60,025 nt of DNA from Alphaproteobacteria bacterium (lineage in GTDB: Bacteria > Pseudomonadota > Alphaproteobacteria > JAPYRI01): assembly GCA_029941135.1 (NCBI GenBank), contig JAPYRI010000006.1, forward strand, positions 1 through 60,025, read 5' to 3'. Both the position numbers and the translations under genes were made by a program. Below the pieces are notes generated by a model. That model ran no database searches and was not told the origin of the DNA. It saw nothing but the letters and a program-made list of their open reading frames with translations. This document shows, piece after piece, positions 8,131 through 58,091 of the stretch (within the stretch, counting starts at the first letter, position 1; each line of letters opens with the position of its first letter).

Positions 8131-10494
8131 CTACTCCACGTATTCGTTGATCTTGCGCTCTTCGTCCGGACCCGGGTCTTTCGGGCCCTTCTTGCCCTTC
8201 GGCTTCTGCTTACCGCGCGGCTGATTGGGCACAATATCGAAAGCGAGCTTGTCGTCTTCCATTTTGACCGCGATCGCACCGCCGTTAACCAGCTTGCCAA
8301 ACAGCAATTCTTCGGCCAACGGCTTCTTAATATGATCCTGAATGACACGGGCCAAGGGCCGGGCGCCAAACATTCTGTCATACCCCCTTTTGGCCAACCA
8401 GGCGTTGGCTTCGTCGGTCAATTGGATAGAGACGTCACGATCCAGCAACTGCGCTTCCAGTTCAAACACAAATTTATCGACAATCTTGGCGATAACCTTG
8501 GGGCTGAGGTGGGCGAATGGAATGGTTGCATCCAAACGGTTGCGGAACTCTGGCGTAAACATGCGTTTGATTGCTTCCTCGTCATCGCCTTCGCGAACTG
8601 ACTTGCCAAAACCAATCGCCTCTTTGGCGAGCTCGGTGGCGCCTGCGTTTGTAGTCATGATGAGGATGATATTGCGGAAGTCGACATGCTTGCCATTGTG
8701 GTCGGTCAATTTTCCGTAGTCCATGACCTGCAACAGAATGTTGAACAGATCCGGATGGGCTTTTTCAATTTCGTCCAGCAACAATACCGCATGGGGGTTT
8801 TGATCGACGGCATCAGTCAGCATGCCACCCTGATCAAAGCCTACATATCCCGGCGGCGCCCCAATTAGCCGCGACACCGCGTGCCGTTCCATGTATTCGG
8901 ACATATCGAAGCGGATCAGCTCAACCGACTGGATATCAGCCAACTGGCGAGCAACTTCTGTTTTACCAACACCGGTGGGGCCCGAAAATAAGTAGCAGCC
9001 AATAGGTTTCTGCGGCTCGCGCAAACCGGCCCGGGCCAGTTTTATCGCGCTGGTCAGGGCGGTGATAGCCTTGTCTTGACCAAACACCATGCGCTTGAGG
9101 TCATCTTCCAGGGTGCGCAAACTTTCTTTGTCGTTTTTCGACACATTTTTCGGAGGAATGCGGGCGATTTTGGCGACCACATCTTCAATTTCCTTGACCC
9201 CCAGAGTCTTACGGCGACGGCTCGCGGGCAACAGCATTTGTGACGCGCCGGCCTCATCGATCACGTCAATGGCTTTGTCCGGCAATTTGCGGTCATTGAT
9301 GTAGCGGGACGACAATTCGACCGCCGCCTTAATCCCATCGGACGTGTAGCGGATTTTGTGAAACTCTTCAAAATATGGCTTGAGACCAAATAAAATCTTG
9401 ATCGCATCTTCTTCCGAAGGTTCGCTCACATCGATCTTCTGAAAGCGGCGCAACAATGCCCGGTCTTTTTCGATATAACTGCGAAACTCTTTGTAGGTGG
9501 TCGAGCCCATGCAGCGCAGGCTGCCACTGGCCAACGCGGGCTTCAATAAATTGGACGCATCCATAGCGCCGCCACTGGTCGCGCCCGCACCGATGACGGT
9601 GTGGATTTCATCGATAAATAAGATTGCGCCATCAAGTTCTTCAACTTCCGCGACCACGGCTTTCATGCGCTCTTCAAAGTCGCCCCGGTACCGGGTGCCG
9701 GCCAGCAGCGTGCCCATATCGAGCGAGTAGATGGTCGCGTCCTTCAGAACATCGGGTACTTTACCTTCAACAATCTGACGCGCGAGGCCTTCGGCAATAG
9801 CGGTTTTACCGACCCCCGAGTCGCCGACGAACAGGGGGTTGTTTTTCTGCCGACGGCACAAAATTTGGATGGTGCGTTCCAATTCAGCCGTCCGGCCGAT
9901 CAAAGGATCGATACGGCCATCGAGCGCTTTCTGATTGAGATTTACGCAATAGGTTTCGAGTGCCTCGGTGCCTTGCTTCTCGGCACTTTCCTGCTCTTCA
10001 TCACCGGTGCCGTCGCCGACAGTTCCTTTTGGCGTTTTAGGCGCACCGCCGCCGGGCGCCTTGGCGATACCGTGCGAGATGTAACTGACGGCATCAAAAC
10101 GGGTCATGTCCTGTTCTTGGAGGAAATAAGCCGCATGACTTTCGCGCTCCGCAAATACCGCAACCAGGACATTGGCGCCGGTGACACTTTCCCGGCCCGA
10201 CGATTGCACGTGAATAACCGCCCTCTGGATAACCCGCTGAAATCCAGTTGTCGGTTTGGCATCCCCATCTTCTTCAACGATCAATCCGTTAAGCTCTTCG
10301 TCAATGTAGGTCACGACCGTCGTGCGCAAACTGCTGATATCCACATTACAGGCATGCATGACTGCGGTGGCGTCCTGATCATCAATAAGGGCGAGCAAAA
10401 GATGCTCTAAGGTCGCATACTCGTGATGACGCTCGCTGGCCAGACTAAGAGCCCGGTGAAGTGTTTCCTCTAACTGGGGGGAAAATGAAGGCAC
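8131..10494 (-). CDS. clpA: ATP-dependent Clp protease ATP-binding subunit ClpA
   Basis: About 787 residues from a GTG at 10494. The site GGAG lies eight bases upstream and the GTG shares its first base with the clpS stop (TAGTG). A longer reading from 10515 is less likely. There are two N-terminal Clp repeats, then AAA+ module 1 (Walker A GDSGVGKTA, Walker B LFIDEIHTVIGAG) and module 2 (Walker A GPTGVGKTE, pore loop in GAPPGYVGF). The tail is lysine-, glycine- and proline-rich, as in alphaproteobacterial ClpA. ClpA unfolds substrates and feeds them to ClpP. clpP is not in the window. ClpS just upstream supplies the N-degron adaptor. Confidence 0.97.
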   Translation of the reverse strand: MPSFSPQLEETLHRALSLASERHHEYATLEHLLLALIDDQDATAVMHACNVDISSLRTTVVTYIDEELNGLIVEEDGDAKPTTGFQRVIQRAVIHVQSSGRESVTGANVLVAVFAERESHAAYFLQEQDMTRFDAVSYISHGIAKAPGGGAPKTPKGTVGDGTGDEEQESAEKQGTEALETYCVNLNQKALDGRIDPLIGRTAELERTIQILCRRQKNNPLFVGDSGVGKTAIAEGLARQIVEGKVPDVLKDATIYSLDMGTLLAGTRYRGDFEERMKAVVAEVEELDGAILFIDEIHTVIGAGATSGGAMDASNLLKPALASGSLRCMGSTTYKEFRSYIEKDRALLRRFQKIDVSEPSEEDAIKILFGLKPYFEEFHKIRYTSDGIKAAVELSSRYINDRKLPDKAIDVIDEAGASQMLLPASRRRKTLGVKEIEDVVAKIARIPPKNVSKNDKESLRTLEDDLKRMVFGQDKAITALTSAIKLARAGLREPQKPIGCYLFSGPTGVGKTEVARQLADIQSVELIRFDMSEYMERHAVSRLIGAPPGYVGFDQGGMLTDAVDQNPHAVLLLDEIEKAHPDLFNILLQVMDYGKLTDHNGKHVDFRNIILIMTTNAGATELAKEAIGFGKSVREGDDEEAIKRMFTPEFRNRLDATIPFAHLSPKVIAKIVDKFVFELEAQLLDRDVSIQLTDEANAWLAKRGYDRMFGARPLARVIQDHIKKPLAEELLFGKLVNGGAIAVKMEDDKLAFDIVPNQPRGKQKPKGKKGPKDPGPDEERKINEYVE

Positions 10495-49697: not shown

Positions 49698-50524
49698 GTG
49701 ACAATTGTTGAACCGGAGTGCGTTGAATCCATCGATGTGCTGAGCGCAGAACAACAGATTGAAAGCTTAATGCCGGACCTTAGAAAAACCGGAATTCATC
49801 CAAATTATTGATACCCCTTGGCTCGGTCAAAGGATTTGAAATCAGGTAAATTGCTGGGTGTCGCGTTTGCCGGTGAGCCGATTGTCTTGGTGAGCACGGT
49901 AAGTGGCCTTTTGTACGCGCTGGAAGACCGATGCGCCCATCGCCAAGTACCGCTCAAAGCCGGCCAGGTGACGGGTGATCTTTTGCAATGCGGATATCAT
50001 TGCTGGACTTACGACAAAACCGGCCGCTGCGTGAGTATCCCGTATTTGGATAAAGACAAGAAGGTGCGCAATGGCGTACGCAGCTACCCGTGCCACGAGG
50101 CCTATGGTCTGATTTTCGTCTATCCTGGCGATATTCAATCGCTGAGTGAGGCCACATTCCCTGACATACCTTCATTTTTTAACGGACGCTATAAAACACG
50201 TTTCCTAAATCGCTAGGTGAAATGCCACTACTCGTTCATGCACGAGAATTTGATGGATATGAACCATCAGTTTCTGTAACGACGTTTGATGGGCCGAATT
50301 CGCTCAACATTGCTGGACACCCGCAAGGGAAACGGCTGGATCGAGGCCGGCTACACATTTACCCGGGCGAGCGGAAGGCAGCCAATTGGCGAAAAAATCA
50401 TGCTCGGCCGCGGGGCGGAGCCGACAGCGGCGCGGACTGGAACAAGGAAGTATTTCCCGTCATTCAGGATCTTCGCGATGTCCTCATAAATGAAGGACTG
50501 CCGATAACCGAAAGCCAGTCCTAA
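49698..50524 (+). pseudogene. decayed Rieske-type ring-hydroxylating oxygenase alpha subunit
   Basis: It starts at GTG with GAGGAAG upstream. A TGA at 49809 stands where homologues have Trp (PNY-stop-YPLA). The Rieske [2Fe-2S] domain then follows with both halves intact: CAHRQVPL and CGYHCWTYD. Further stops are a TAG at 50214 (before the iron-binding CHYSFMHENLMDMNH stretch) and a TAA at 50277. A frameshift with loss of about 100 codons follows, after which another frame gives the normal-looking end EVFPVIQDLRDVLI. Three nonsense codons and a shift: not functional. It followed the acyl-CoA synthetase as part of the same operon. Confidence 0.87.
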
Positions 50525-51468
50525 TACCCTCGGTCGCGGGGGATTTCGGTCGGCACCGGCTGACCGGCTTCAATGCGCTCAACATTGGCGGCAAAAAACA
50601 ACGCAATTTCTTCCATGTAAGTCGGGAACACTCCGGCGATATGAGGCGTCATCACAAGGTTTGGCGCATGCCACAGCGGGCTGTCTTCAGGCAGTGGCTC
50701 CTGCTCCATCACATCGAGGGCGGCGCCGGAAAGGTGGCCATCCTCAAGCGCCCGGCACATGGCGGCTTCGTCAATAATCCCCCCTCGCCCCATATTGACA
50801 AGTGCACTGCCCGGCTTCATGGCGCGAATGACAGTCTCGTCGATGAGCCCGTGGGTATCAGGAGTCCAGGGCAATAGGCTTATCAAAACGTCCGATTGTG
50901 CCGCGACTTCTATGGTTTGATCGGGTGGGTAAATTTTGTCCACATGCTCGACCGTCTTCGGTGTGCGTTGCGTGCCAATCACGCGCATGCCCATTTGAGC
51001 GGCCCGGCGGGCAAGGGCGGCACCTATTTGGCCGAGACCGAGAATACCGAGCGTTGATCCTTCGACGTTCAAGGGCGAATATCTTTTCCAGGTCCGGGTC
51101 CGTTGTTGACTGATTGCCCGGTCGATCCGCTTGCGCACAATGAGGATAAGAGCCAAGCCGAACTCGCTCATGGGCTCGGCCACCAAGCCGGACGCATTGG
51201 CGATGATGACACCTTCCGGCAAGCCTTTGAGGGGCCACATATGATCGATGCCCGCGCCTATACTGTGAACTAATTTAAGCTTCTTCGCTTGCGGCCAATA
51301 GTCGGGCGGTGGAGAGAGGGCTAGTAAGTATTCGATCTCGCCAATTTCCGACGCAAACTGATCTTCATTCTCCAGACTGACGATCTCGCGCCCCGGGAAC
51401 GCGGCTTCCATTGCCGGAATTTGGCTCTCTCTGAACATAGGTAAATGGATATGAATCCGCCGGCTCAC
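50521..51468 (-). CDS. D-2-hydroxyacid dehydrogenase (NAD-dependent)
   Basis: About 315 residues if it starts at GTG 51468; the frame is open to 51561 but the extra 31 residues are unlike the family. N-terminal catalytic half with LVHSIGAGIDHM near 75, the NAD-binding loop GILGLGQIGAALARRA near 135, the catalytic Arg in SLLPWTPDT and MGRGGIID, and the His in PHIAGV near 280. It reduces a 2-keto acid to the D-hydroxy acid or the reverse; the glyoxylate/phosphoglycerate-type subgroup is likely. Its 3' end overlaps the end of the Rieske relic by four bases. Confidence 0.88.
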   Translation of the reverse strand: MSRRIHIHLPMFRESQIPAMEAAFPGREIVSLENEDQFASEIGEIEYLLALSPPPDYWPQAKKLKLVHSIGAGIDHMWPLKGLPEGVIIANASGLVAEPMSEFGLALILIVRKRIDRAISQQRTRTWKRYSPLNVEGSTLGILGLGQIGAALARRAAQMGMRVIGTQRTPKTVEHVDKIYPPDQTIEVAAQSDVLISLLPWTPDTHGLIDETVIRAMKPGSALVNMGRGGIIDEAAMCRALEDGHLSGAALDVMEQEPLPEDSPLWHAPNLVMTPHIAGVFPTYMEEIALFFAANVERIEAGQPVPTEIPRDRGY

Positions 51469-51717
51469 AGAACGATTCCCACAATTTCTCCCACTGCATC
51501 GTCTCGCCGATTGCCCAACATATTTGATACCTCTCTTGTATGAGTGGCGGGAGGCTACCATTTCCGGGAGCCCAAATCAGCCCACTGATCGCGTGTCGCT
51601 TGCAACTGAAATCCGTAAGAACAAACTACAATCGTAGTTCGGTTTGCGATTGGCCACGATTGTATTTCGGAGCTGGAAAAAGTACTTTGTTTTTGACGTC
51701 GCGATGGGAAGCGTAGG

Positions 51718-52230
51718 TTGGATTATTACACGCTAGCTAAGATTAAAACCCATTGCCGCAAAAAAACCACGGGCGCGTGGATTTCAAAATATTTATTGTG
51801 GTGGCCGGTCTCTCCCTACCTGACATGGGCATTTGCCAACTTACGCCTCACGTCGGTGTTTACTGTCGTCCTCAGCATCTTCTTTATAAGTACCGCAGCG
51901 TTATTGCTGTTCTCGAACGCACCAATACTGCTGGTTGTTTCGGCATTGTGCATCGAAATATAAGCCCTGCTAGACCATGTGGGCGGTGAGCTGGCGCGAT
52001 TTGAAATGAGCTGCCTCGGCCGGAACAACAGCCGGGTGGATCATTTTTTAGATTTATTCGCCCATGAGATCTCCGTTATCGCCATGTTTGCGATCGGCTG
52101 GGCGGTGGCAAATTCGACCGGAAACGAACTTTATTCCGTCGCCTCATTTGCGCTGTGCTTTTTCATTATGCGCCCAGTCAATGAATCGGCAAATCAAGTT
52201 GTTATTGAAGAAGCGAAACAATCCTCATGA
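51718..52230 (+). pseudogene. broken CDP-alcohol phosphatidyltransferase-like gene
   Basis: It starts at TTG. Residues 1-80 carry two hydrophobic helices and a WWPVSPYLTWAFANLRLT stretch as in CDP-alcohol transferases. A TAA at 51961 interrupts, and the same frame then runs through ALLDHVGGELARF and SRVDHFLDLFAHE. This is the signature D-x2-D-G-x2-A-R...D-x3-D with the second Asp changed to Gly. More helices follow to 52230. A nonsense codon plus a changed metal ligand argue for a pseudogene. The short membrane protein gene behind it may be its displaced end. Confidence 0.72.
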
Positions 52231-52526
52231 GTTCAGCCTTCGCTAAACTGCAGGCTTTCAAAGTTACTAAGAACGAAGAAGCCGATAATGTCCGGCCATT
52301 GGGCGTATTATTGTTTTTCAACGAGCTGTTTGGTTTTCCCGGCTGGCTGCATTTGATAGCTATCGCCTGCCTGTTGGATGCTTTCATCGCGCCGTTATCT
52401 GTGATGGGCGACGTTTATCTGTATCGCGAAGCCCTCATTATTGGGCTGTTGCCCATTTATGTGGCCAAGTTTCTCTTTGCGTTGCGCTGGTATCTGAAGG
52501 TGATGTTATCGATCCGCCACGGATAG
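52227..52526 (+). CDS. small membrane protein, possibly the displaced end of the preceding relic
   Basis: 99 residues whose ATG overlaps the previous stop (ATGA). Two to three hydrophobic segments are seen: PLGVLLFFNELFGFPGW, LHLIAIACLLDAFIAPLSVM and ALIIGLLPIYVAKFLFALRW. No family recognised. It could be a separate two-gene partner of the CDP-alcohol transferase relic or the frameshifted C-terminus of the same protein. The clean overlap favours a distinct gene. Confidence 0.5.
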   Translation: MSSAFAKLQAFKVTKNEEADNVRPLGVLLFFNELFGFPGWLHLIAIACLLDAFIAPLSVMGDVYLYREALIIGLLPIYVAKFLFALRWYLKVMLSIRHG

Positions 52527-52586
52527 TCGACGAAAAAAACATGAGTTAAAAGCGCTGCAGTTGATCCTTGAGCACCTGTTTTACGC

Positions 52587-53033
52587 TCAAACCACTGTCG
52601 GGATCAGAGCCCACGACATCCATTTAGCCGACACGGGAGTACCCGTGCCTCGGCCCAAATGTGAGGGCGCATTGATGGTTTCTATAGAATCTAAGCGCAG
52701 CCCATTTGACCGGCCAAGCTCAGTGAACACCACCTGAGCCGAGGGTTGGGTGAGGCCAACCAGAGGAAAGGGCGCAGTCCGCCAGCGTGATCTGATGCTC
52801 ATCCATGCTTCATCGATATCATGGGTGATGTTGATCACTTCTATCCCGCGTGCGCAACACTGCGAAAAGAACTCCTGGGAGCCATCAAATCGGATATCGC
52901 AAATCGCCACTTTAGGCAAAAGGTTTGCCAACACAGACATCGGGACAAGCGTCGTAGCCACTCCCAATCCAACAACGGCGCCTGCTTTTAAAGCTTCGCG
53001 GCGGGATAATATATGGCTCATGGTTTGCTTCAT
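52587..53033 (-). CDS. Tat-exported protein of unknown function in flavocytochrome operon
   Basis: 148 residues with a strong twin-arginine signal (SRREALKAGAVVGLGVATTL, about residues 9-30). The mature part starts near LPKVAICDIRFDGSQEFFSQC and includes WRTAPFPLVGLTQPSAQVVF and RSNGLRLDSIETI. I do not recognise a family. It overlaps the cytochrome c gene by ATGA and is the third gene of the operon led by the vanillyl-alcohol-oxidase-type flavoprotein. Its position recalls the small third protein of 4-cresol dehydrogenase clusters, but I see no sequence proof. The last 20 residues (from about RGTGTP) look less conserved and the gene could be truncated. Confidence 0.65.
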   Translation of the reverse strand: MKQTMSHILSRREALKAGAVVGLGVATTLVPMSVLANLLPKVAICDIRFDGSQEFFSQCCARGIEVINITHDIDEAWMSIRSRWRTAPFPLVGLTQPSAQVVFTELGRSNGLRLDSIETINAPSHLGRGTGTPVSAKWMSWALIPTVV

Positions 53034-53353
53034 TTTTCGCCGGCGAGAAATTTGGCCAGTGCGTCGAGGTCGGTATCCGAAATTTCTGTCGGCCGAAAGG
53101 ATGGCATTTCCAAACGTCCGTTTCGGACCACTTGTGCGATGTAGTCAGCACTCAAGTCTGTGCGATCCTTCAGTACCGCCCTGTCCTTACCAAAGCTCCA
53201 TTCCAGCCGTTGCGTTCCAGGATGCCCAATGCCCGGTGCGTGACAATGACTGCACCATTTCTGGTAAACCTGTTCGGCCATTGTACCCGCGCTTTCTTCG
53301 CCGAAAGCTGGCGAAAAACCGGCAATGACAAATAATGCGATAACGACCCTAAT
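53030..53353 (-). CDS. c-type cytochrome partner of the flavoprotein, apparent ATT start
   Basis: 107 residues if started at ATT 53353. The haem motif CSHCH is near residue 33, with a distal Met in EMPSF near 81, and the small class I cytochrome fold ends at LAKFLAGEK. Upstream of the first ATG (53281) the frame encodes a good signal peptide (RVVIALFVIAGFSPAFG) but has no ATG, GTG or TTG. ATT overlaps the flavoprotein stop as ATTAG, seven bases after GGGGA, so translation is likely coupled. It should accept electrons from the flavin in the periplasm, as in 4-cresol dehydrogenase and eugenol hydroxylase. Confidence 0.82.
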   Translation of the reverse strand: MRVVIALFVIAGFSPAFGEESAGTMAEQVYQKWCSHCHAPGIGHPGTQRLEWSFGKDRAVLKDRTDLSADYIAQVVRNGRLEMPSFRPTEISDTDLDALAKFLAGEK

Positions 53354-54920
53354 TTTTCTGTCCCCGCAAATGCTTTGGCCATATTCCCTGTTTGCCCGGT
53401 GCCAATATACCTTTGGGGTCGAGCGCGTCTTTTATGCGCTCGTTCAGCTTTAGCAGCGCGTTGTCGTTCCAGTTGTAGCTGGCGGCGATTTTGTCCATGT
53501 ACGCCAAGTGCGTCCGGTATTCGCCATACCCGGCTTTCGCCGCCTCATCGATCAAGACCGAAAACAATGCTCGGGCTTGTGTCTTTTGTGATTCGTCTTC
53601 GCCGTCGAACAGCAACATGAAGATGTGGTGCATCTCGCGCCAGCCGATGATGAACTCGCCCAGATAATCGAAGCCAAATTCTGCACAGCGGTCGCGGATC
53701 ATCGAATATTGCTTCATCGCGTCCGCCCCGGTGATCGGCGATATGGGTGAAAAATCCACGTGCCCGCCACCGCCGGTCCAATTGATCGAGTTGAACTCGG
53801 CCAAAGTCGGCTCGCCTGACATGAGTTTTTTGCGGTATGCCATCACAGGATCATTGGGTCGGTCCTCGGCCAAATAAAACCTGGCTCCCGGCACGGCGGA
53901 CAGGGCATCGCGGATCACACCCCAAGTCGCGTCCATAATCGGCTCAGGTCCGTACAAAGCAGAATAGAAATTCCACATGCCAATCTTTTGATCAGTCATG
54001 ATTTTTGTGAGCACACTCGGTGGCAAGGGGCCGTCGCCGGTGTAATACTGGGAGCGCGTACCGGTAATGCAGGCGTCCAGTAAGATATTGCTGATGGTGG
54101 CCGCGTTTTGGATAACCAGGCTCACTTTCAAAGGCCGCAGAATTTCGATCACCTGCTCGATATCTTCTTCACGGGGAAAGGTGATCAAATAGGGTCGATA
54201 ACCGGGCGGTTCCGGCATCAACCAAATACCCATTTTCGTGATCACGCCAAAGTTTGATTGTGTGAATATGCCGTCCAAATAGGGCCCAAACCCGTATTTG
54301 AACAATTGCCAGGTGTTGCTGTTGGGCAGCGCCCCCATGCCGGTGCGCACGAGGGACCCATCGGCCAAGACCACTTCCATCCCGCATTGCATGGCAAAAT
54401 GATCGCCGTAAGGGGTGTAGCCGACGCCCCGATCCGCCGTGTTGCCGACAATACCGCCCATGGCATTGCTGGCTGGATCGATCCACAGTTTGGATCCGGT
54501 TTTCTGCAGATGCTCGTACAAATCCAGATAACTGACCCCAGGTTCGACCAAGGCATAGCCGAACTCTTCGTTGACCTCGATCACTTTATTCAGGCGCTTA
54601 AGGTCAAGCACCACTGATCCCGGAAGCCGCGGCGCGGGGCCGCCATATGCAAGGTTCTTGCCCGTCGAGATCGGCCACAAGGGGATCTCAAAGTCGCCGG
54701 CAATGCGAACGATGTCTTGAACCTGCTCGACATCCGCAGGCGCAACTGCCGCCGATGGCTCGAAATGGTCGTCGTCAACAATGGCAAAAGGGTCGCGATA
54801 GCTGCTAACACCGGCGGACTCGTCGGCAAACACCCATTCAATGCCAATGGCTTCGGCAAAGGCTGCCAAAGCCCCCTCAAACTCGGTGATATCTATCCCG
54901 GGCGGTAGCTTTCGCGCCAT
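53349..54920 (-). CDS. FAD-linked oxidase, 4-cresol dehydrogenase/vanillyl-alcohol oxidase family
   Basis: 523 residues from ATG 54920 (GGGAG upstream; TTG 54923 possible). The FAD-binding PCMH domain spans about 55-270, with PLWPISTGKNLAYGGPAPRLPG, the strand VVLDLKRLNKVIEV and the GGIVGNTADRGVGYTPYGDH loop. The C-terminal substrate domain includes the GGGGHVDFSPI block near 410, where the family often carries its covalent flavin ligand, and ends LDPKGILAPGKQGIWP. These enzymes oxidise para-alkylphenols (4-cresol, eugenol, vanillyl alcohol). The overlapping cytochrome c gene indicates a dehydrogenase rather than an oxygen-using oxidase. Confidence 0.9.
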   Translation of the reverse strand: MARKLPPGIDITEFEGALAAFAEAIGIEWVFADESAGVSSYRDPFAIVDDDHFEPSAAVAPADVEQVQDIVRIAGDFEIPLWPISTGKNLAYGGPAPRLPGSVVLDLKRLNKVIEVNEEFGYALVEPGVSYLDLYEHLQKTGSKLWIDPASNAMGGIVGNTADRGVGYTPYGDHFAMQCGMEVVLADGSLVRTGMGALPNSNTWQLFKYGFGPYLDGIFTQSNFGVITKMGIWLMPEPPGYRPYLITFPREEDIEQVIEILRPLKVSLVIQNAATISNILLDACITGTRSQYYTGDGPLPPSVLTKIMTDQKIGMWNFYSALYGPEPIMDATWGVIRDALSAVPGARFYLAEDRPNDPVMAYRKKLMSGEPTLAEFNSINWTGGGGHVDFSPISPITGADAMKQYSMIRDRCAEFGFDYLGEFIIGWREMHHIFMLLFDGEDESQKTQARALFSVLIDEAAKAGYGEYRTHLAYMDKIAASYNWNDNALLKLNERIKDALDPKGILAPGKQGIWPKHLRGQKN

Positions 54921-55119
54921 CAAACTCCCTGCCTTAAAAAGGTCCCTGCGCTAACTATTTTAACATGCTCTAAATTCCATGTGACCCAAGAACCACTTCA
55001 TCACCAATTGGAGTCGTCAACACAGTGCAAAAATTAAAGCCGCCTGACTTGATCCTATACTCATTTGTGAGAGGCTGGTAAGCCATTAAAGTAAGTATGG
55101 ATCATCAAGGAGTTTAGTT

Positions 55120-55953
55120 ATGCAAGCCGGCGCCGTCATGTTCATGACCGATTATTCAATGCCGCCCGCAGACCTTGCCATCGCTTTGGAAGAGCGTGGG
55201 TTTGAGTCGGTTTGGGTGCCGGAGCACTCGCACATTCCGACCTCACGCAAATCCCCGTGGCCGGGCGGACCTGAATTGCCCAAAATGTACTACGACGCCA
55301 TGGACCCGTTTGTGAGCCTCGCCGCCATGGCCAGTGTCACCAAGAAATTATTGCTGGGGACCGGCATCTGCCTGGTGGTGCAGCGCGATCCCATTCAGCT
55401 CGCCAAAGAAACCGCGAGCCTCGATCAAATCTCGGGCGGGCGTTTTCTGTTCGGCATCGGCGGCGGTTGGAACGCGGAAGAAATGGCCGACCACGGCACC
55501 GAATTTAAGACGCGCTTTAAGCTGATGGGCGAGCGCGTGGACGCGATCAAAACCATCTGGCGCGACAGTAAAGCCGAATACCATGGCGAGTTTGTTGATT
55601 TCGACTCGATGATGACCTGGCCCAAACCGATTCAGAAGCCCAACCCGCCCATCCACGTGGGAGGCGGGTTTCCCCATGGCGCCCGGCGGGCGATCGAATA
55701 CGGAGAAGGCTGGATGCCCATTGGCGCCCGCTTTGACGTTTTGGACAGCGTGTCCCGTTTCCGCCAAATGGCCGCCGAGGCCGATCGCGATCCAGATACA
55801 ATTGAATTGACGGTTTTTGGCCTCAACCCCAACGACGATTTGGAGCCCTATGCGGATGCTAATTTTGGGCGGATTGTGTTTAACCTGCCGTCCGAGACCG
55901 CTGATACCATCCTGCCGCTGCTCGACAAATACGCGGAAATGGTAGGACTCTAG
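55120..55953 (+). CDS. LLM-class (luciferase-like) flavin-dependent oxidoreductase
   Basis: 277 residues, TIM-barrel LLM family. Blocks: SVWVPEHSHIPTSR near 32, LLLGTGICLVVQRDPIQLAKETASLDQISGG near 72-104, FLFGIGGGWNAEEM near 108, PPIHVGGGFPHGARRAIEYGEGWMP near 178. They typify the F420-type members, often annotated as TIGR03619. The cofactor could be F420 or FMN. AAGGAG lies eight bases before the ATG. Followed by a cupin gene 106 bases later. Substrate unknown. Confidence 0.9.
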   Translation: MQAGAVMFMTDYSMPPADLAIALEERGFESVWVPEHSHIPTSRKSPWPGGPELPKMYYDAMDPFVSLAAMASVTKKLLLGTGICLVVQRDPIQLAKETASLDQISGGRFLFGIGGGWNAEEMADHGTEFKTRFKLMGERVDAIKTIWRDSKAEYHGEFVDFDSMMTWPKPIQKPNPPIHVGGGFPHGARRAIEYGEGWMPIGARFDVLDSVSRFRQMAAEADRDPDTIELTVFGLNPNDDLEPYADANFGRIVFNLPSETADTILPLLDKYAEMVGL

Positions 55954-56059
55954 CGCACATCACCGAAAATGCGATAAACTGGAACTAGAATTGACGCATT
56001 AAAATCTAATCCGCCGAGACCCGGGGAGAAACCGGGGTTGGCTATGAGGGAGATATTAT

Positions 56060-56518
56060 ATGGCACTGCCCCAAGACGTATCACCGCTAAACTCGGAATT
56101 GATGGACACCTTGTTCCGCACCGATCACGAAGACTGGATCCCCCAGGAAAACGACCCGGAACGGGCGTTCATGAAGGTCCTGTTCACAGGATCGGAATCC
56201 GGCGTTTGGGTGTGCAAATTCCGCTGGCTGAAAGGCTATACCGCACCCCAGCACAAGCACCTGAGTTCGTCACATACATTCATATTGAGTGGAAAGTTGC
56301 AGGTTCGGGACGGTACCTTGAACGCGGGCGATTATGTGTACGAGCCCGATGGCATGCTGCACGGTGAAACCAAGGCCATGGAAGACACCGAATATTTGTT
56401 CATCTGCACCGGACCGGTAATTTTCTATGACGACGATAAATTCACTGGTTACATCAACTGGGAAACCCTTCGGCAAGCCAAAGAAACCTATTACGCCCAA
56501 AAGGAAGCCGCCGAATAA
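56060..56518 (+). CDS. cupin-domain protein (ChrR/dioxygenase-like)
   Basis: 152 residues with one cupin: the first motif YTAPQHKHLSSSHTFILSG near residue 58 (three metal-binding His) and the second motif DYVYEPDGMLHGETKA near 92-106 (fourth His). The N-terminus and the C-terminal INWETLRQAKE are as in the 2,4'-dihydroxyacetophenone-dioxygenase/acetylacetone-cleaving-like cupins. A small Fe-dependent dioxygenase is likely. A strong terminator follows the gene. Confidence 0.85.
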   Translation: MALPQDVSPLNSELMDTLFRTDHEDWIPQENDPERAFMKVLFTGSESGVWVCKFRWLKGYTAPQHKHLSSSHTFILSGKLQVRDGTLNAGDYVYEPDGMLHGETKAMEDTEYLFICTGPVIFYDDDKFTGYINWETLRQAKETYYAQKEAAE

Positions 56519-56589: not shown

Positions 56590-57165
56590 CTACCGTCCAA
56601 TGCGGCAAAAGCCGGCGTCGCCCACTTCGTCGGCTGTGCTTTGATCGAGGTCGGTATGAAATGTCGCATGCATGCGATTGACGAACCCAACCAAGCCCGC
56701 GGCCACTGACAGTTTGACCAGCTCTTTTTTAGGAAAGCGCGCTTCCAGTTCGGCATAGAGCGCGCCGTCAACCTTGTTGTCCCGGGTCAGGACCTCGGTG
56801 TAGCGCAGCACAAGGCGATCTCTGTCATCGAACAAGGCGCTGCTTTCCCAATCCGCCATGGCGGCCATCTCTTCGTCCGTTATCCCAACACTCCGACCGA
56901 GCATCGCATGGGTGGGTATTCAGTAATGGCACGCGTTGAGCTGTGAGGCCCGCAGCCATGCAAGTTCCCGATAGCGCGGCTGAAGGGGCGAGTCATCGGC
57001 GTAGAGCGAGCTGATCATAGCAACGAACCCGCCAAGAAATCCGACGTCGTTCCCGAACAATTTAAAGACGTTGAGTATTGGGAAGCCCAATTCTTCAACC
57101 TGCCCGTAAATCGCCTTCACTTCGTCCGAGGCGTCTTCAAACTCAACCAGTGGAATACGCGCCAT
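56590..57165 (-). CDS. candidate selenoprotein of the AhpD/carboxymuconolactone-decarboxylase family (UGA-encoded Sec82)
   Basis: Read through the single in-frame TGA at 56922-56920, this gives about 191 residues starting MARIPLVEFEDASDEV (earlier ATGs at 57186 and 57225). It has the standard CMD layout: YRELAWLRASQLNACHY, then TGA, then IPTHAMLGRSVGITDEE, FDDRDRLVLRYTEVLT and AAGLVGFVNR. Intact homologues have Cys at the TGA (a CxxCxxxH motif), so the active-site pair becomes Cys79-Sec82 with His86. A stem-loop with a GGUC apical loop starts 15 bases after the UGA. Nothing else in the frame is broken. Such proteins are peroxidase or disulfide-reductase types. The alternative is a pseudogene or a sequencing error; selA/selB/selC are not in the window. 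Confidence 0.65.
56888..56904 (-). promoter_or_regulatory. SECIS-like stem-loop after the in-frame UGA
   Basis: On the minus-strand RNA, AUGCUC pairs with GAGUGU (four Watson-Crick and two G-U pairs) closing a GGUCG loop whose first G lies 22 bases after the UGA. An outer CCCA/UGGG pairing flanks it. Bacterial SECIS elements sit inside the coding sequence just after the UGA and have a G at the loop start. The E. coli fdhF loop also contains GGUC. Confidence 0.5.
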
Positions 57166-57405
57166 AACCTCACTTTTATCTTTCATTTTCCTAACCGGAA
57201 TGAATATATCGTAAGCGCCTGTCACTTTTTACCATTCATCTGGATGCATAATCAACTTTAGTATGAAATTATTCGTCTGTACTCCGTTTTTTGCGTCTCG
57301 CGTAACTAGTTCGATTAAACACTTCATATATCTGCGAGTTTTATGACGTTAGGCAGGTGCTTGTATTCGACAGTTGTCGGTCGGGTATGCGGCGCCAATC
57401 TCATG

Positions 57406-57458: not shown

Positions 57459-58091
57459 TTAGCCAATACCGGACATCGGGGCCATGTCGTACACCTTTGA
57501 CCAGTCCAGCCAGATTTCGCTCAGGCTGTCGATCTGCCGGTCGATCATCGCGCCAAATTTGCCGGTCGAGTCCCGGATGCCCATAAGCTGCTTGGCACGT
57601 TCTTCAAGGTTCGTTTGGTGGGCGATCTATGCGCTCTGTTTGAGCATGTAGTCGTTCAGTGGTTCCCAAATTCCTGTCCAACGTTGTGCAAATCCCAGGA
57701 AGGCGACAGTCGAGATCAATTCACCAATTTGCGGGCCGGTAAAATTATTTGACAGCTCATAGACCAGTTGACCTGGAATGACATTCGGATACTCAATGGA
57801 GCATTCGGCGAAACGGATTACCAAAACCTCGGCTTCGTCAAAATCAATCAGATCGGAGATATCCCGGCTTTTGGCGAAGGCTTCCACCTGGGCCAGCTTT
57901 CTTTCGGCAAGGGCTGCATCAACGGCGGTTTGAAGAGCGAGACGTTTTTCTTCAGTCGCTAGATTTGGATAACCGCTAGCGTGAGTGACGAGATAGGTCC
58001 CCAAGTGTTTAAGACTCGCGGGAAAACCGTCATTCTCGAATGCCGCATAATAAAGATAACTGGCGCCGTTGATCATAAACTCATCTGGCAA
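57459..58091 (-). pseudogene. CMD-like gene interrupted by TAG
   Basis: From TTG 58091 a 154-residue frame encodes SYLYYAAFENDGFPASL, ATEEKRLALQTAVDAALAER and a C-terminal helix pair (FTGPQIGELISTVAFLGFAQRW) that recalls the end of carboxymuconolactone-decarboxylase proteins, without a CxxC motif. A TAG at 57627 ends it. The same frame then continues for 55 codons (IAHQTNLEERAKQLM, RQIDSLSEIWLDWSKVYDM) to a TAA at 57459, and this stretch is protein-like. Also upstream of the TTG the frame is open for 16 more codons without ATG. Probably a recently inactivated gene; a functional truncated protein of 154 residues is possible. Confidence 0.55.

Follow-up and report, generated by a model that had tools for sequence, protein, structure and literature searches.

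The AhpD/CMD-family gene on the minus strand of the window (the whole stretch of 60,025 nucleotides that was analysed) is, on sequence evidence, very probably a selenoprotein gene in which the in-frame TGA at codon 82 is read as selenocysteine (Sec); we put the probability at about 0.96. This reading, which had been proposed from the window sequence alone, was supported by the selenium machinery of the genome, by conservation of the TGA, by selection on either side of it and by a downstream hairpin. The features are as follows.

56590..57165, minus strand: AhpD/CMD-family candidate selenoprotein gene, 191 codons plus TAG, placed by the ATG at 57165, the Pfam CMD match and the orthologue starts.

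56920..56922, minus strand: in-frame TGA, codon 82, the putative Sec of the CHYU motif; TGA in 9/9 orthologous genes.

56929..56931, minus strand: TGC codon of Cys79, the CxxU partner of Sec82, read from the sequence and invariant in the alignment.

56886..56906, minus strand: bacterial SECIS-like hairpin, RNAalifold consensus of nine genes, with the loop at 56894-56898.

The sequence-only reading had given the interval with the strand unstated. The frame was found on the minus strand; a plus-strand frame for 56590-57165 was rejected, as translation there shows no such frame. The TGA is the only one in frame, with the frame otherwise open for 81 codons on its 5' side and 109 codons on its 3' side, and its context is NAC79-H80-Y81-[TGA82]-IPTH, the second position of the CxxC pair. 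The earlier description of a single TGA at the second CxxC residue of a frame of about 191 codons thus agrees with the minus-strand frame and with eight orthologues. An alternative in-frame GTG lies upstream of the ATG, at 57225; all orthologues have an ATG start equivalent to 57165 (M-x-RIP).

The gene passed the Pfam CMD model PF02627 (4e-13, 49.6 bits, cut-off 23). The match bridged the TGA, covering residues 67-144 of the longer frame with the parts on both sides of it, and the AhpD core domain was likewise matched across the TGA. TIGR00778 was also passed (43.5 bits, cut-off 27.8); the score against TIGR01926, peroxidase-related enzyme, was 42.9 bits, below the cut-off of 81.8. The best NCBIfam match, over residues 1-153, was NF053654, YciW-related (seleno)protein, to which the window protein is a relative that scores too low for membership (61.5 bits against an equivalog cut-off of 310). 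NF041238, AhpD_rel_CFYUT ('hypothetical protein 1' of the Sargasso Sea), is AhpD-related and CxxU-bearing like the window protein, which scored 20 bits against its cut-off of 175; this model is 357 positions long. None of the specific selenoprotein models had its cut-off exceeded by the window protein group.

The genome of the window is a fragmented 3.02-Mb draft of 178 contigs, estimated to be 95% complete. selA, selB, selD and the tRNA for Sec were all present in it, clustered on a single contig, C29, so that an absence of selB and tRNA-Sec, named beforehand as the result that would speak against a selenoprotein, is ruled out. selB scored 420 bits, above the curated family cut-off, selA matched PF03841 at 1.4e-156, and tRNA-Sec scored 68 bits and was called by ARAGORN as tRNA-SeC with anticodon tca. 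selD was found as an Ndh-SelD fusion of 757 residues (L017:341-2614), which adjoins selB, selA and tRNA-Sec and shares a 6-kb cluster with selA; this fusion is also known from marine selenoproteomes (PMC2398784). The tetranucleotide signatures of the window and C29 correlated at r = 0.958, compared with 0.61-0.76 for the Binatia loci. The window gene and the Sec machinery therefore probably belong to one organism, and a bin from the wrong organism is unlikely. A tRNA-Sec with anticodon tca was also present in each of the three orthologue-bearing genomes tested.

Scanning genome contigs turned up three relatives, 59-63% identical and each with TGA at codon 82. A search of 148 genomes of the Binatia record's class brought the total to eight orthologues, 56-63% identical and each with exactly one internal TGA. 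Read codon by codon, position 82 was TGA in all nine genes, the window gene included, and Cys in none. The TGA-bearing orthologues come from independent assemblies, among them contigs MPMI01000026, SYOC01000290 and OX638322. A more distant gene (L078, 34% identical) reads CHY-TGA-VPTH, again with one TGA within the frame, and in the tree it joined the Sec set at 100/99 support, apart from two Cys homologues. Homologues at a greater distance, such as L021, L024 and PA0269, have Cys in this column, so the alignment holds the Sec/Cys pairs that the sequence-only reading had looked to. No further orthologues were found among 299 genomes of the window's own phylum, and the branching point of the window gene among the Binatia copies was not resolved by the tree. 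The distribution, taken by itself, suggests horizontal transfer of the AhpD/CMD gene.

Purifying selection was equally strong before and after the TGA. For the close pair of orthologues L018 and L020, dN, dS and dN/dS were 0.014, 0.148 and 0.097 before it and 0.027, 0.304 and 0.089 after it. dS was saturated between the window gene and L018, and the 110 base differences downstream of the TGA were distributed as 21, 23 and 66 over the three codon positions. The dN/dS values and the downstream third-position bias together indicate that the part beyond the TGA is translated in the same frame.

RNAalifold on the nine genes returned one hairpin, 21 nt past the UGA, with an 8 bp stem and the loop GGUCG (GGUCA in one gene). 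In each of the nine genes the whole stem of eight pairs forms, and each of the 72 pair cells is standard. Five of the eight pairs vary with pairing kept; the changes are all one-sided (G-C, G-U and A-U swaps), none being a two-sided compensation. The energy in the window was −8.9 kcal/mol, and of 553 segments of that size in the gene just 4 fold as well; a competing fold over the first 45 nt of the window's gene (−10.2 kcal/mol) was a little more stable than the consensus structure. Since a search of the window gave no Rfam family, the hairpin was judged on published limits for bacterial SECIS elements, namely a loop of 3-9 nt with G in its first two positions, a stem of 4-16 bp, a spacing of 16-37 nt and an MFE of −7.5 or below (PMC13188914). 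It lies within every one of them (5 nt, GG, 8 bp, 21 nt, −8.9 kcal/mol). Fourfold-degenerate positions were compared in 30 columns whose first two bases are unchanged. Only two were identical in all distinct orthologues, in the adjacent codons +7 and +8 (CTC GGT), which fall in the stem and loop; the chance of both fixed columns lying among the hairpin's four such columns is about 0.014, and the fixation could partly reflect codon preference. Because the hairpin overlaps a conserved peptide (MLGRS), its conservation is in part that of coding sequence.

The same genome encodes at least two further CxxU proteins of the CMD family, each with TGA in this column.

C7:31620-32147 (L053:3567-4127, minus strand): second CxxU CMD gene, CNL-TGA, followed by a hairpin.

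C48, about 9052-9348 (L054:2373-2966, plus strand): third CxxU CMD gene, CHF-TGA, followed by a strong hairpin.

Over 45 nt the hairpins reached −15.0 (C7) and −17.3 kcal/mol (C48). Both paralogues score best against NF053654, yet far under its cut-off. Several other TGA flags were rejected as Sec and proved to be terminal stops. A CMD-family gene of another genome (G055:C3:49189-49683; L060:1999-2346, minus strand) reads CPF-TGA-ID at the same column and is a candidate selenoprotein.

A neighbouring ORF at 57627-58091 on the minus strand resembles CMD proteins weakly and matches no Pfam family, and the fragments upstream of it, to about 58450, have stops in all frames. Together they look like a decayed CMD paralogue, which fits the earlier remark that neighbouring genes are decayed, as far as this one neighbour was examined. 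Positions 49818-56518 of the window, which the selenoprotein gene adjoins, carry genes for a Rieske protein, a 2-hydroxyacid dehydrogenase, a cytochrome c, an FAD-linked oxidase, a luciferase-like monooxygenase and a ChrR-type cupin. By eye, an apparent luciferase-like gene lies 1-2 kb from the Binatia orthologues L018 and L020.

Given that decayed-looking neighbour and its fragments, the TGA might be taken for a nonsense mutation in a pseudogene, of the same kind as the lesions close by. The identical TGA in eight orthologues at 56-63% identity, despite saturated synonymous sites, and the purifying selection on the codons downstream of it make this very improbable. A sequencing or assembly error in place of TGC or TGT, conceivable in a fragmented draft assembly, is extremely unlikely when the same TGA stands in orthologues of several independent assemblies; a private error or lesion at codon 82 is ruled out by its fixation in the eight orthologues of other genomes. 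If the TGA were a true stop, the locus would yield two polypeptides, one of 81 residues and one of about 104 residues from an ATG six codons past the TGA, and the downstream part is indeed listed as an ORF. Such a division would break the CxxC pair between its two redox residues within one helical hairpin; moreover, orthologue L076 carries GCG in place of this ATG, and there are both Sec machinery and a SECIS-like hairpin. We consider two separate products very unlikely. Reassignment of TGA to Trp or another amino acid throughout the genome would also leave the frame open. It has almost no probability, as TGA ends both selA and a second gene on that contig, the residue falls at an active-site position that is Cys in distant homologues, and a tRNA-Sec is present.

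Read as a selenoprotein gene, the locus would encode a full-length AhpD-like protein of 191 residues, with UGA codon 82 decoded by SelB and tRNA-Sec(UCA) under the direction of the hairpin 21 nt downstream. Sec82 would stand in for the more C-terminal of the two cysteines in the AhpD CxxC pair and form an AhpD-type proton-relay site with Cys79, Glu67, Tyr81 and His86. The relay comprises Glu118, Cys130, His132, Cys133 and His137 in AhpD of M. tuberculosis and Glu36, Cys48, Tyr50, Cys51 and His55 in PA0269 (PMC3141380). In the window protein E67, C79, Y81, U82 and H86 have identical spacing and are conserved; they follow the five-residue pattern Glu-x11-Cys-x-(His/Tyr)-Cys-x3-His, with Sec for the second Cys and the other four positions kept. 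An AlphaFold2 model from a four-row alignment was of only moderate confidence (pLDDT 77.5, pTM 0.75). Its best fold matches were PA0269, Atu0492, other AhpD-like proteins and the debrominase Bmp8; sequence profiles concurred, the nearest solved structures being AhpD-like.

The relay residues, the fold and the sequence profiles together point to a redox enzyme of the thiol/selenol peroxidase type; the main rival is that its substrate is another electrophile. The product is thus most likely a CxxU enzyme of this type, and we regard peroxidase-type chemistry as fairly probable, with activity, substrate and reductant all putative. The selenolate of Sec82 would reduce a hydroperoxide or another electrophile, Cys79 would resolve the oxidised Sec by forming a selenenylsulfide, and the Sec may be regenerated by a cellular thiol or by a system of the thioredoxin type. 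Non-peroxide chemistry is compatible with the selenoprotein reading and concerns function only. It could be a Bmp8-like, thiol-dependent reductive dehalogenation, or the protein could serve as an adaptor that exchanges disulfides. Bmp8 turns up among the full-length matches by fold and among the profile matches (E = 1.3e-5), an adaptor role in the AhpC system has been ascribed to AhpD itself (PMC3141380), and the neighbours include the luciferase-like monooxygenase, the FAD oxidase and the cupin. Against this stand the nearest relatives, which are AhpD-like peroxidase-related proteins, and the intact five-position relay. We regard such chemistry as possible and clearly the less likely alternative to peroxidase-type chemistry.

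Annotation with TGA as a stop would label the window gene, its orthologues and the two paralogues as truncated or broken. With Sec read at this codon, a known selenoprotein family gains a subfamily that current models miss and in which Sec appears to be invariant; Sec at the second Cys of an AhpD site also offers a clean test of what selenium contributes. A more far-reaching view, which we think improbable, is that of a distinct obligate-Sec AhpD/CMD subfamily (CHYU-[IV]PTH), found in Binatia and one unrelated lineage and using its selenol for specialised reactions, for instance reductive dehalogenation or peroxide reduction linked to xenobiotics, not for general antioxidant defence.

AhpD-like/CMD-domain CxxU selenoproteins were described from the Sargasso Sea in 2005 (PMC1088965), are among the commonest selenoproteins of the GOS data (PMC2398784) and appear in a 2026 review (PMC13188914). 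A literature search on YciW or Binatota together with selenoproteins gave nothing specific. What is modestly new is a subfamily that lies below the cut-offs of existing models, is invariably Sec in the sample and occurs in a genome with at least two CxxU paralogues. Among solved structures, PA0269 of Pseudomonas aeruginosa (2IJC, 2O4D, 7XW1) is the best match in both sequence and fold and has the same relay spacing; it is a shorter protein, and its Cys51 stands where the window protein has Sec82. The Sargasso Sea and GOS AhpD-like selenoprotein, COG2128/YciW (PMC1088965, PMC2398784), combines a CMD/AhpD domain, Sec at the second position and a downstream SECIS, as is predicted here. Compared with those proteins through the current models, the window group falls well below the specific cut-offs.
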